35,035 bases of DNA, taken from Lachnospiraceae bacterium (GTDB taxonomy: Bacteria > Bacillota > Clostridia > Lachnospirales > Lachnospiraceae). Below are positions 9,900 through 34,888 of this stretch, one piece after another. The stretch is from contig JAGBEV010000058.1 in NCBI GenBank assembly GCA_017936785.1, positions 1-35,035 of the forward strand. Reading direction: 5' to 3'. The translations under genes were made by a program, and so were the position numbers. Under the pieces are notes generated by a model, which saw only the letters and a list, made by a program, of their open reading frames with translations, did not search any database and was not told the origin of the DNA. The stretch's first letter is position 1. Every line of letters begins with the position of its first letter.

Positions 9900-10304
9900 T
9901 TAGAGTTTCAGCACATTTTCCACGATTTCAACTGCATCCATAATACAGTCAGGACAGGAACGGAGGACTTTTCCGGTTTCCACACCCTTTAATTCCTTGC
10001 ATATAGTGGAACTATTCTTTTCCTGAAACTGCTTTACAATTTCTCTGGAAAGTCTGTAGGTATCAGCTTTTGTCTTGGGATCATCCAGATTTCCGTCACT
10101 GTTTTTCAGTCCTGCCAGAATGACAGCGCCTGTCACTGCGCCACAGGTGCCCTCCATGCCGCCCATGCCAAGACCGCAGCCCTCACAGACCTTAAATAAT
10201 GTTTCCTTATCAACGCCCGCCTCATCGGCAAATGCCATTGCCACAGCCTGGGCACAGTTGTATTTTTTGTCATGATATGCAATTGCTAATTCTTTTTTTG
10301 TCAT
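9900..10304 (-). CDS. C_GCAxxG_C_C family protein
   Basis: The 134-residue protein shows the family signature: 'YNCAQAVAMAF' near residue 15, 'CEGCGLGMGGMEGTCGAVTGA' in segments near 40-60 (the GCAxxG-like core read as CGAVTG), and two late cysteines ('STICKELKG', 'RSCPDCIMDAVEIV'). These small redox-type or metal-binding proteins are widespread in anaerobes; their biochemical role is not settled. ATG 10304 has AAGGAG 8 nt upstream and is clearly the start. The frame stays open upstream to 10616, but that extension runs through a 234-bp structured repeat and is not protein-like. If the element at 10362-10595 is transcribed leftward it would be in the leader of this gene. Confidence 0.9.
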   Translation of the reverse strand: MTKKELAIAYHDKKYNCAQAVAMAFADEAGVDKETLFKVCEGCGLGMGGMEGTCGAVTGAVILAGLKNSDGNLDDPKTKADTYRLSREIVKQFQEKNSSTICKELKGVETGKVLRSCPDCIMDAVEIVENVLKL

Positions 10305-10361
10305 AGTTGTTTCTCCTTTTCGTATTTTTGAGTAATGTTTGTGTTGGGGGATGTTGTGGTG

Positions 10362-10595
10362 GAATTGGGTGGGGGTATGTTCTTTTTGGAAACCGGATAA
10401 GGAAAGGGGGTATTTTCTAACCAAATGGGAAGGTGTGTGGAGTGCGTCCGGGTCGGCTTCTAATGCGCCATCCGGGCGCAGAAGCCTAAAACGCCCATCC
10501 ATGGGCGTTTTTCCCTGGTTTTTTGGACCATTTGGTAAGAAAAGGCCCCCTTTCCTTAATACGGTTTCCAAAAAGAACATACCCCCACCCAATTC
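10362..10595 (-). ncRNA. Structured RNA candidate A (TwoAYGGAY-like), 234 bp
   Basis: The ends form a perfect 34-bp inverted repeat (10362-10395 with 10562-10595), followed inward by a second near-perfect helix (about 10397-10429 with 10527-10561). Read on the minus strand the core holds a 9-bp hairpin with loop ATGGAT (AAAACGCCC/GGGCGTTTT, 10489-10512), then AGG, a 7-bp stem (GGCTTCT/AGAAGCC, 10455-10486) enclosing GCGCC/GGCGC with loop CGGAT, then CCGACCCGG. Element B at 10780-11013 repeats this layout with different, still complementary, stem sequences. Two loops close to AYGGAY recall the TwoAYGGAY motif described from Clostridia and gut metagenomes; I could not check this. The strand is inferred from those loops. 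It lies 58 bp upstream of the C_GCAxxG_C_C start, so it could be a leader or a separate transcript. Confidence 0.7.
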
Positions 10596-10678
10596 ATCTA
10601 CTCTTTCTCCCCGCAACAGAAAGCATTATCTGGTGTTTAGTTTAAGATTTACTTTATTTTCCGTACCATCGCCCTAGC

Positions 10679-10761
10679 CTCAGCGCCTTCCCCGCCTCAA
10701 CAGGCGAAGCTGAAAACTATTCTCCGGCGGCGGGGAAGTATTTATCATCACTGCCCCTGAG
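10679..10761. other. Third hairpin, between structured RNA candidates A and B
   Basis: CTTCCCCGCC (10687-10696) pairs perfectly with GGCGGGGAAG (10729-10738), and CTCAG (10679-10683) with CTGAG (10757-10761). A small alternative stem CGCC/GGCG (10693-10706) competes with the main one. No T-run follows on either strand. No ORF or confident promoter is seen in 10596-10779. Confidence 0.5.
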
Positions 10762-10779
10762 AATAATTGTGGCGTGGTT

Positions 10780-11013
10780 GCTCAACCGTTAAAAAAGGTT
10801 TCTTTTTGAAAGTGTTGTTTTGAATCGTAGTTTTTCTTACAGAATGGTCCGATACCCAGGGGAATCCTGCCATGGATGGCAGGATTAGGTCCCACTGGAC
10901 AGGACGTCCATTGGGACCGACCCGGCAGAAGCCAAATCCCTGAATCCATTCTGTTAGAAAAACAAGATTCAAAACTCCGCTTTCCAAAAAGAAACCTTTT
11001 TTAACGGTTGAGC
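10780..11013 (+). ncRNA. Structured RNA candidate B (TwoAYGGAY-like), 234 bp
   Basis: The ends form a perfect 29-bp inverted repeat (10780-10808 with 10985-11013) of different sequence from element A. A second helix follows (about 10809-10847 with 10945-10984). On the plus strand the core has a 9-bp hairpin AATCCTGCC/GGCAGGATT with loop ATGGAT (10863-10886), then AGG, a 7-bp stem GGTCCCA/TGGGACC enclosing TGGAC/GTCCA with loop AGGAC (10887-10918), then CGACCCGG. Blocks shared with element A in the same orientation include TTCTTTTTG near the 5' end, TTTTCTTAC, AATGGTCC, ATGGAT, CGACCCGG, GTTAGAAAA and TTTCCAAAAAGAA. Stems change on both sides together while loops and junctions stay, which is the mark of a conserved RNA fold. 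It lies 33 bp past the buk stop, facing it. Confidence 0.7.
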
Positions 11014-11046: not shown

Positions 11047-12114
11047 TTAATACTTCAACGCCTCTTCCTCACCGGTCAACACGCGGATTGCCCCCTGAGC
11101 CAGAGCCAGCAATTCATCCTCGCCGGGATAAACAGTAAAAGGAGCGATCCACTCACATTTTTCTTTTAATCCTGCAACAACACCCTTGTCATATGCAATA
11201 CCGCCGGTTACGATGATCTGGTCAACCTTGCCGTTTAATACACATGCCATGGAGCCCATATCTTTTGCTACCTGCTGGATAAATGCAGCACGCAGCTTAA
11301 TTGCGTCTTCCTTACCTTCGGAAGCCATCTTTTCAACGTCTCTCATATCGTTTGTGCCAAGATATGCGTTAAAGCCGCCGTTACCAACGATCTTTTTGTA
11401 TACTTCTTTCTCAGTATATTTGCCGGAGAAGCACATTTTGATCAATGCGCCGGAAGGAACTGCGCCTGCTCTTTCAGGAGAAAATGCACCGTCGCCGTCC
11501 AATGCGTTAAATACGTCAACAACCTTGCCCTGTCTGTGTGCGCCTACGGAAACGCCGCCGCCCATGTGGACAACTACAAGATTTAAGGAATCATAGGATT
11601 TACCGTTTTCTTTAGCATAGCGTTTTGCAACAGCCTTCTGGTTTAATGCGTGGAAAACGCTGGTACGGGGCAGTTCCGGCACGCCGGAGTATCTTGCGAT
11701 ATCTTCCAGCTCGTCAACAACAACCGGATCGACAATATAGGAAGGAACGCCGATGGAGTCGCCGATTTCTCTTGCCAGGATGCCGCCTAAGTTGGAAGCA
11801 TGCTGTCCCTGTTTTCCGATCTTTAAATCTTCCAATAAGTCATCGCTTACAGCGTAAGTGCCGCCGGGGATAGGCTTTAACATACCGCCGCGGCCTACCA
11901 CTACGTCTAAGGATTTGATATCAAAGTTTTTGGAATCCAGTAAGTTTAAGATAATGTCTTTACGGAAATCCTTCTGGTCTACGATAGAAGCGTAGCTTGC
12001 GATCTCTTCTGTGGAATGTCTTAAGGTTTCTTCAAATAATAAGGTCTCATCTTCAAATACACCGATCTTGGTGGAAGTGGAGCCGGGATTGATAATTAAA
12101 CTTTTTATGGACAT
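11047..12114 (-). CDS. buk: Butyrate kinase
   Basis: The 355-residue protein has the usual butyrate kinase length and the acetate/butyrate kinase fold: '[15 protein letters not shown]' phosphate-binding strand at residues 5-19, '[16 protein letters not shown]' (specific to butyrate kinases), '[14 protein letters not shown]' and '[13 protein letters not shown]'. It converts butyryl phosphate and ADP to butyrate and ATP, the last step of one butyrate pathway. ATG 12114 has AGGAGA 6 nt upstream; an ATG at 12120 is too close to that site. ptb lies 13 bp upstream on the same strand, giving the classical ptb-buk operon. After the stop comes structured RNA candidate B rather than a simple T-run terminator. 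Confidence 0.95.
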
Positions 12115-12127
12115 TTTCATTCTCCTT

Positions 12128-13048
12128 TTATTTATTTTTCATGAATTCGGAAACAACAGCGCCCAGAGCCAGAGAGTTTACTTTTACTTCTACTGAATCG
12201 GAACGGCTTGTTAAAATAACCGGAGCCTTCGTACCGGTAAGCATGTTGCCGTTTACCATCTTAGCAGTATGTACCATTGCTTTATAAACAAGATTTCCTG
12301 CATGGATATCAGGGAATAACAGTACATCAGCATCACCTACGATCTTACGGTCGGAAGCACCTGCTTTATGTGCGGCAGCTTCAGGACAGATAGCAAGATC
12401 CAAAGAAAGAGGACCGTCTACGATACAGCCTGTGATCTGACCTTCTTCATTCATCCTGGTAAGCTCTGCAGCTTCAACGGTAACGGGCATCTTGGGATTT
12501 ACTACTTCAACTGCCGCAAGAGGAGCAACCTTTGGATTGGGAATGCCGCATGCATGGCAGATTTCTACAGTGTTGTTAATAATGGAAACTTTATCCTCAA
12601 GTGTAGGATAAGGCATAAATGCAACGTCAGATAAGAATAATAAATGGTCGATACCTTCCACATCAAATACGCATACGTGGGATAAGGGTTTACCGGTACG
12701 AAGTCCGACTTCTTTATCCAATACGCTCTTCAAAAAGCCCTTGGTATCGATCATACCTTTCATGTACATATCAGCTTTGCCCTCATGTACCAGAGAAACG
12801 GCTTTTCTTGCAGCCTCAGTAATATCTTTTTCGTCGATGATCTCATAGCCGGATAAATCCATATGGATGGATGCGGCGATTTCCTTGATCTTGTCTTCAT
12901 CGCCTACTAAGATCGCATCTGCGATATTGCGTTCCTTTGCGACCTTAACAGCTTCCAGAACGGGAGCATCCTGTGCAACGGCAACGGAAACTTTTTTCAG
13001 CGGGCAGCCGTCCAATTTGGCGATTAACTCATCAAAACTCTTTGTCAT
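12128..13048 (-). CDS. ptb: Phosphate butyryltransferase
   Basis: The 306-residue protein belongs to the phosphate acetyl/butyryltransferase family: '[17 protein letters not shown]' at the N-terminus, '[20 protein letters not shown]', '[18 protein letters not shown]', '[15 protein letters not shown]' and '[17 protein letters not shown]'. It converts butyryl-CoA and phosphate to butyryl phosphate and CoA in the cytoplasm, feeding buk. Pairing with a GRGGM-type butyrate kinase supports butyryl rather than acetyl specificity. GAGG lies 11 nt upstream of ATG 13048. It is divergent from secA, and a good promoter sits at 13108-13136. Confidence 0.94.
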
Positions 13049-24342: not shown

Positions 24343-24412
24343 GTGATAAAAAGCATATCTGCTCTTCATTCATGCAAAAAAGCCAAATCAATAAATATTG
24401 GATTTGCTTGAC

Positions 24413-24537
24413 TTTCTTCTCTCATCCAGACTTTACTGTCGGTTTTGGAATCTCACCAAATCAGCCATTTACATGGGTCGCGGACTAGCTTTCGCATCAC
24501 CGCCGGTAGGGAATTGCACCCAACCCCGAAGAATTGC
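24413..24537 (-). ncRNA. FMN riboswitch aptamer
   Basis: The minus strand carries the conserved FMN (RFN) blocks in order: TTCGGGG, GGGTGCAATTCCC, TACCGGCGGTGATGCGA, AGTCCGCGA, GATTTGGTGAGATTCC, AAACCGACAGT, AAGTCTGGATGAGAGAAG. FMN binding normally stops expression of flavin synthesis or uptake genes; the following terminator and ribU complete the unit. Confidence 0.96.
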
Positions 24538-34648: not shown

Positions 34649-34734
34649 GGAGAGGTATCGAAGTGGTCATAACGAGGCGGTCTTGAAAACCGTTTGTCCG
34701 TGAGGGCGCATGGGTTCGAATCCCATCCTCTCCG
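34649..34734 (+). tRNA. tRNA-Ser (anticodon UGA)
   Basis: A 7-bp acceptor stem GGAGAGG/CCTCTCC, anticodon loop CTTGAAA with anticodon TGA at 34684-34686, a long variable arm typical of serine tRNAs, and TTCGAAT in the T arm. Discriminator G; CCA is not encoded. Confidence 0.97.
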
Positions 34735-34799
34735 TTAAAGCATACAGCTTTAGTGACAATGGTAATAGCATATGTAGAAGTAAAATTTCAGCTATGTTT

Positions 34800-34888
34800 G
34801 GAGAAGTACCCAAGAGGCTGAAGGGGCTCCCCTGGAAAGGGAGTAGGTCGTTAATAGCGGCGCGAGGGTTCAAATCCCTCCTTCTCCG
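34800..34888 (+). tRNA. tRNA-Ser (anticodon GGA)
   Basis: Acceptor stem GGAGAAG/CTTCTCC, anticodon stem CTCCC/GGGAG with loop CTGGAAA (anticodon GGA at 34834-34836), long variable arm, and TTCAAAT in the T arm. Discriminator G; CCA is not encoded. It lies 65 bp after the first tRNA-Ser. Confidence 0.97.

Follow-up and report, generated by a model that had tools for sequence, protein, structure and literature searches.

Nearly wobble-free covariation in TwoAYGGAY hairpins, which are probably mobile palindromic DNA repeats with a constrained core

The window analysed here, the whole 35,035-nt stretch of DNA from a Lachnospiraceae bacterium, carries two hairpin elements between a gene for a C_GCAxxG_C_C family protein and a buk-type kinase gene whose stop codon lies about 34 bp from element 2. 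As shown in Table 1, the elements stand head to head beside buk, as a preliminary description of this DNA had stated, and the positions, the common length of 234 bp and the opposite orientation that it had given for them were all correct. The perfect outer arms that it had reported were also recovered: 34 bp in element 1, where gapless extension gave 34 bp with 0 mismatches, and 29 bp in element 2 (by eye), where the extension reached 32 bp with 1 mismatch. A repeat search paired 10362-10410 with 10547-10595 in element 1 (90% complementary over 49 nt) and 10780-10811 with 10982-11013 in element 2 (97% over 32 nt). Of the features described earlier, both elements contain the 9-bp hairpin, the 7-bp stem and CGACCCGG. 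The first apical loop, that of the 9-bp hairpin, is ATGGAT in both. Element 1 has CCGGAT as its second loop and element 2 has AGGAC, shorter by one base, so that neither is strictly AYGGAY; GGA is present in all four loops. Elsewhere the window contains an FMN riboswitch (24410-24537, minus strand, 114.3 bits) and, at its end, two tRNA genes (34649-34888). A rimP-leader match at 10455-10525, on the strand opposite element 1, scored 28.4 bits, below the cut-off of 47, and is probably due to chance.

Table 1. Positions in the window of the two TwoAYGGAY elements, their parts and the adjoining genes.
Feature	Position	Strand	Basis or remark
Element 1, whole hairpin	10362..10595	TwoAYGGAY sense on (-)	Rfam match, repeat search, arm extension
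Element 1 core	10395..10561	(-)	RF01731 match, 82.4 bits, E 8.6e-13 (Rfam)
Element 1 outer arm, 34 bp	10362..10395	(-)	pairs with 10562-10595 as a perfect inverted repeat; differs by eye from the arms of other copies in the same genome
Element 1 outer arm	10562..10595	(-)	partner of 10362-10395
Element 2, whole hairpin	10780..11013	TwoAYGGAY sense on (+)	Rfam match, repeat search, arm extension
Element 2 core	10815..10977	(+)	RF01731 match, 96.7 bits, E 4.9e-16 (Rfam)
Element 2 outer arm, 32 bp	10780..10811	(+)	1 mismatch to 10982-11013
Element 2 outer arm	10982..11013	(+)	by eye resembles the hairpin arm at the same place in genome G007, which is without the core
Spacer of the head-to-head pair, 184 bp	10596..10779		matched no other pair's spacer
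Possible further outer helix of element 1	10333..10351 with 10608..10628		alignment score 13, compared to 11 at the 95% level for mispaired flanks
buk-type kinase (Pfam Acetate_kinase)	11047..12120	(-)	named buk from the PTA_PTB neighbour at 12128-13048
C_GCAxxG_C_C family protein, downstream of element 1	9900..10304	(-)	start is the ATG at 10304, chosen by the analyst

Both elements matched the Rfam TwoAYGGAY model, RF01731, over its full length and above the gathering threshold (cut-off 43), and these scores, together with the arm lengths, bear out the earlier view of them as TwoAYGGAY copies with long closing helices. The earlier comparison had used two copies; a scan of the window's genome (G000; 3.41 Mb in 66 contigs) supplied 24 matches above the cut-off and 2 contig-end fragments. 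Eight of the nine genomes of the genus carry TwoAYGGAY, with 26, 16, 24, 29, 5, 0, 3, 4 and 31 matches in G000 to G008. In the family, at least 21 of 150 sampled genomes are carriers, a lower bound given that at most 17 candidates were scored per genome under strict filters. Ten of these carriers were searched fully, and the richest hold 50, 47, 40 and 32 matches. Kineothrix alysoides and Lachnospiraceae bacterium 28-4 are among the carriers that a pattern search turned up and Rfam confirmed. Twenty-three of the 26 matches in G000 were aligned, leaving out a 61-bit match at contig C31 and the two contig-end fragments. The core alignment held 197 of 200 selected copies from 11 genomes; the copies of G004 (5), G006 (3) and G007 (4) were left out from the genus, and other genera contributed 22 of 50 copies in G150, 24 of 32 in G129, 15 of 47 in G050, 9 of 40 in G045, 4 of 7 in G016 and 3 of 20 in G012.

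Carriage by phages or plasmids was rejected, since no matches were found there or in viral contigs: element 2 gave none against phage and plasmid records (blastn at E 0.01), and of two patterns run on viral contigs, one found 0 stretches and the other 8, none of which reached the RF01731 threshold. Units with a like tip layout in different surroundings were seen in Photobacterium spp. (loci L307, L320, L322, L324, L335, L337, L346, L354, L367, L370, L371 and L380). They consist of CCAGGG, a hairpin with CATGGATG, TTAGG, a second hairpin and CCCGG; the top RF01731 score in L380 and L322, 34.1 bits, is under the cut-off. Between copies, a double change from A-T to T-A can be seen by eye in stem 1. 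In G150, contigs C6, C7, C20, C92, C112 and others start or end in or beside a copy, and this draft assembly seems to break at the TwoAYGGAY palindromes.

The stems do covary, as had been described. In the 23 own copies, the covariation score was 0.658 compared to 0.144 ± 0.014 in shuffles and at most 0.143 in slid versions, and 98.0% of 805 pair cells were paired versus 71.1% when shuffled. RNAalifold found 35 pairs in these copies, 29 of them with two-sided changes. Of the 805 cells, 183 have changes on both sides and 1 has a change on one side only; 3 are G-U and 4 are A-C in the RNAalifold structure. G-U pairs are the usual route and residue of RNA covariation, and an RNA that changes via G-U intermediates should leave many of them. 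The core of the 197 copies from 11 genomes has 7032 Watson-Crick, 110 G-U, 111 A-C and 405 other cells; as a control, the acceptor and T arms of 24 distinct tRNA genes of the window's genome gave 265 Watson-Crick, 22 G-U and 1 A-C. The 121 genus copies by themselves have 47 G-U and 49 A-C in the core. The preliminary description had taken covariation as the mark of a selected RNA fold, and this inference lost its support because G-U is no commoner than A-C in the core, unlike the 22:1 of the tRNAs, and is nearly absent in the own copies.

The outer arms were counted in several ways. Isolated mismatches in the extended arms comprise 66 G-U, 49 A-C and 39 transversions, with 829 less certain cells set aside, and G000, G001 and G008 alone give 16, 20 and 5. 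Another arm count gave 51 G-U, 39 A-C and 52 other, and a raw arm count (37 G-U, 16 A-C) is inflated by copies of shared descent. Since an A-C on one strand is a G-U on the other, mixed orientations could make the two appear equal, and the copies were therefore split by the orientation of the flanking genes. Copies sense to both flanking genes (same/same) have 33 G-U and 31 A-C, and copies antisense to both (opp/opp) have 33 and 22; the mixed classes have 17 and 27 (same/opp) and 8 and 15 (opp/same). Insofar as gene orientation stands for transcription, there is no wobble tolerance on either strand.

Comparison of the sister species G002, G003 and G008 found 54 ortholog pairs, 49 of them with usable arms. 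Of the paired arm sites in these 49, 1312 are unchanged and 73 carry a change on one side; 33 have changed on both sides with pairing retained, 6 show other two-sided changes, and 14 contain a gap. Transversions account for 20 of the 33 compensated sites, and 7 of the 33 are held by one pair, 81% identical, that is probably not orthologous. The recent one-sided changes comprise 34 G-U, 10 A-C and 29 other, where the same change may count in two comparisons. In several places, a block of two or three bases has changed in the same way in both arms, a pattern that template switching in replication is reported to produce (Monttinen and Loytynoja, PMC8794818). Over 53 ortholog pairs, divergence was 1.5% in the inner helix, 1.9% in the hairpin stems, 1.3% in the tip bases, 4.5% in the 5′ linker and 10.2% in the 3′ linker. 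A second alignment gave, in the same order, 1.6, 1.9, 3.4, 4.7 and 9.2%, with 5.0% in the outer arms, 4.6% in the flank on the 3′ side and 17.2% in that on the 5′ side. The divergence of the tip thus depends on the alignment (1.3% versus 3.4%), and the outer arms evolve no more slowly than the 3′-side flank or the 5′ linker.

These data bear on the possibility that the copies are neutral relics, in which the arms of an old miniature transposon would stay complementary by template-switch mutation alone and would serve no present function. The multi-base and transversion changes compensated in both arms between sister species are of the kind that template switching would make, and decayed copies do exist, being present in the sister species. 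However, the core stems (1.5-1.9%) and the tips (1.3-3.4%) have diverged far less than the 3′ linker (9.2-10.2%), with a smaller contrast between the core stems and the 5′ linker (4.5-4.7%), and conversion alone should, by reasoning, not lower the rate. We therefore regard neutral relics as quite improbable. Template switching should likewise not slow evolution, yet the core is slow, and we read this as a core held in place by selection and an arm pairing driven by mutation.

By eye, the arms of G000 (26-73 bp without gaps) and those of G001 (53-129 bp with gaps) differ from copy to copy. At the G001 loci L104-L118, the inverted arms of 53 to 129 bp are near perfect and each is different, and some look by eye like gene-end sequence. 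Because the arms differ in every copy of G000 and G001, it was suspected that they derive from the target as inverted copies of the insertion site. As a general rule this was rejected, since groups of copies share arm sequence in G150, G050 and G129, which belong to three other genera; in single cases, arms may be target-derived. Arms conserved in sequence, as in a miniature transposon, which the preliminary description had named as counting against its reading, occur in G150, G050 and G129, while in G000 the arm pairs of the copies inspected all differ by eye.

Apparent insertion footprints were found in G129 and, in smaller number, in G050. In G129, from which 24 copies were fetched, exact 7-bp direct repeats flank 6 of the 10 copies with both end motifs (0.11 expected), and in G050, with 15 fetched, they flank 2 of 12 (0.00 expected); the repeats were counted at the best offset of a scan and the expectation was taken from mispaired flanks. 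In G000, G001 and G008, 7-bp flanking repeats were not in excess, and a looser scan of these three and of G045, G150 and G016 showed none in excess either. G129 also has core-less hairpins with the same ends as its TwoAYGGAY copies. A search of this genome for a transposase with matching ends found none: the 32 end matches include no facing pair 1-3 kb apart by our reading, and no DDE-type transposase was seen by eye among the long ORFs, up to 3 per locus, of 7 loci where ends are lone or short-spaced. Tyrosine-recombinase-like ORFs were seen by eye in G129 loci L253 and L254, near lone or short palindromic copies of the end motif. Among G002, G003 and G008, no clean empty site was seen in four aligned candidates and two further loci, all of which read as deletions, exchanges or different inserts.

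Where neighbouring copies lie less than 700 bp apart, 33 of 34 are head to head, and the exception is a tandem duplicate; the 34 cases include orthologs and represent about 21 independent loci by our count. That a pair forms one composite unit with a common spacer was rejected, since spacers match between orthologous loci only. At one locus shared by G008 and G003 (L056/L076), different left partners stand beside the same right element, as if exchanged or newly inserted, and the spacer ends in degenerate 16-bp tandem repeats (by eye). Of 79 single copies, 55 have their 3′ end closer to a gene than their 5′ end (p 0.0006), as do 32 of 35 paired ones, and the gene on the 3′ side shares the strand of the copy in 49 of 114 cases. 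A consensus scan found promoter-like sites upstream in the sense direction in 41 of 135 copies, compared to 44.3 in shuffled sequence, and hence no excess; the other counts were 60 upstream antisense, 43 downstream sense (shuffled 35.0) and 40 downstream antisense. The gene orientation, which is near random, the position of the 3′ end and the lack of promoter excess argue against a leader RNA. A cis-regulatory leader, although Rfam types RF01731 as Cis-reg, is thus most improbable, and Weinberg 2010 marks TwoAYGGAY 'n', probably not, for cis-regulatory (PMC2864571).

The position of the 3′ ends is also what a bidirectional terminator or insulator would lead one to expect, in which the palindrome would stop transcription from both sides at gene borders, so that both strands must fold and wobble would be unwelcome. 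At the locus itself, element 2 occupies the place after buk where, by eye, six of the seven other genomes of the genus inspected there (G001, G002, G003, G004, G006 and G008) have an apparent ordinary intrinsic terminator. The seventh, G007, has the same gene order with 222 bp between the matched parts of the two genes; it is without either core there and retains one hairpin, an arm of which resembles the 3′ arm of element 2. Its core may have been lost or may never have been present, one locus being compatible with both. On the other side, the GGA loops are strand-specific and yet are kept in each of the four gene orientations, and the copies read on one strand show no relaxation of the matching mismatch type (same/same and opp/opp counts above). 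A role as terminator or insulator accordingly appears distinctly unlikely to us.

Binding of TwoAYGGAY by CsrA has been proposed (PMC4333381), and the CsrA consensus is given as RUACARGGAUGU with GGA in a hairpin loop (PMC4347634). The transcript of each copy would then bind a CsrA dimer by its two tip loops, and the copies would act as a distributed sponge or as mobile CsrA sites. Of the 197 copies, 190 keep GGA in loop 1 and 192 keep it in loop 2 (192 and 197 over the whole hairpins); both tips are mostly C-A-n-GGA-n-G, near the CsrA consensus with GGA in the loop, while the surrounding stem varies. However, the consensus has ACA, and the tips show no conserved A in front of C-A; GGA is equally kept in copies antisense to both neighbours (61 and 64 of 64 for loops 1 and 2) and in copies sense to both (62 and 62 of 62). 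CsrA is encoded in 21 of the 21 carriers found, the window's own genome among them, versus 82 of 150 genomes overall, with a hypergeometric probability of 8e-7 if the genomes were independent, which they are not. Flagellin is also found in 82 of 150, in nearly the same genomes as CsrA and in all 21 carriers; the association is thus confounded, and flagellated life or ancestry could be its cause. In the genus, CsrA is present in 7 of 8 carriers, and G005 has neither copies nor CsrA, but G002 has 24 copies and no CsrA hit. The absence of wobble tolerance, overall or by gene orientation, and the lack of an upstream promoter excess also speak against a CsrA-binding RNA. We judge this explanation unlikely, and CsrA binding, at that same level of belief, is the main rival of the DNA-hairpin reading.

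A tyrosine recombinase linked to csrA was considered as a partner protein and rejected, as 14 of 150 genomes have it but only 5 of the 21 carriers do. Six loci (L411, L413, L414, L415, L416 and L417; in G050, G045, G016, G068, which has two, and G150) have a divergent paralog of CsrA and, next to it in opposed orientation, a tyrosine recombinase of about 190-210 aa. Four of the six are followed by a flagellin gene; in the remaining two, the contig stops shortly after csrA. These loci are possibly a flagellin switching cassette.

We consider it reasonably probable that TwoAYGGAY is a mobile palindromic DNA repeat, a DNA hairpin with a constrained core that is mobile at least in some relatives; its hosts are flagellated bacteria that, judging by the named carriers, appear to be Lachnospiraceae. 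This reading draws on the many copies, the shared arms, the end repeats, the flanking repeats in G129 and the few in G050, the core-less hairpins with the same ends, the G007 locus without either core, the decayed copies, the compensated transversions, the pairing with no excess of wobble and the slow core. In the functional form, one DNA strand would fold into a long hairpin whose branched tip bears the two GGA loops, and a putative protein would recognise this fold. New copies would insert into intergenic DNA, frequently next to a copy already there and in head-to-head orientation. In old copies, the outer arms would drift and their complementarity would be kept by template switching from arm to arm, while the core would additionally be held by selection. 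Several results count against a mobile DNA hairpin: no transposase was found in G129, there is no footprint excess in G000, G001, G008, G045, G150 and G016, the recent arm changes lean to G-U, and the arms evolve no more slowly than the 3′-side flank or the 5′ linker. In addition, the presence of CsrA in all carriers found and the CsrA-like loops are not predicted by a DNA-only view. Only tentatively, and as a claim that we hold possible but doubtful, do we suggest that TwoAYGGAY is not an RNA family and that it is instead a folded-DNA element with a branched tip and two GGA loops, whose dozens of copies are selected where they stand and whose single strand is read by a protein of the flagellated, CsrA-bearing hosts. 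The covariation would then be that of DNA, and the lack of wobble would make it recognisable as such.

Genome scans use covariation as a main proof of structured RNA. If a curated RNA family covaries very strongly and its G-U pairs are no commoner than A-C, this would show that such proof can come from DNA, and counting G-U against A-C by strand is a simple test that is applicable to all Rfam families of unknown function. If the link to CsrA is real instead, gut-type bacteria would carry mobile CsrA sites by the dozen. In the portions of the literature covered by a search that was not exhaustive, we met no account of TwoAYGGAY as a mobile element, nor of the wobble test, the insertion footprints, the head-to-head rule or the association with CsrA and flagella.

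Compared with known systems, the two elements are like the RF01731 TwoAYGGAY RNA in that both score well above threshold over the full model. They are unlike it in that RF01731 is listed as an RNA, while here there is no wobble tolerance and the copies behave like a dispersed repeat with mobility in some relatives. CsrA-sequestering RNAs of the CsrB/RsmZ type carry GGA in hairpin loops. TwoAYGGAY shares this feature and in most carriers has CsrA in its host, but differs by its dozens of dispersed copies, its lack of a promoter excess and its near-random orientation to neighbouring genes. REP/BIME sequences are extragenic palindromes of about 35 bp that occur in many copies and in inverted pairs. 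TwoAYGGAY likewise consists of many extragenic palindromes in inverted pairs, as the head-to-head neighbours show, but its hairpins exceed 200 bp. RAYT-type transposases (Y1_Tnp) were found in 5 of the 9 genus genomes including G000 and gave no hit in G003, G004, G005 and G008; TwoAYGGAY differs from REP/BIME in that G003 and G008 have no Y1 transposase hit despite 29 and 31 copies. Miniature inverted-repeat transposable elements are short, multi-copy and mostly intergenic. TwoAYGGAY differs from them by its long internal palindrome with a conserved branched tip, by the failure to find a parent transposase in G129 and by own-genome copies without an excess of flanking repeats, but it is like them in being short, multi-copy and mostly intergenic and, in G129, in having outer inverted repeats together with 7-bp flanking repeats.
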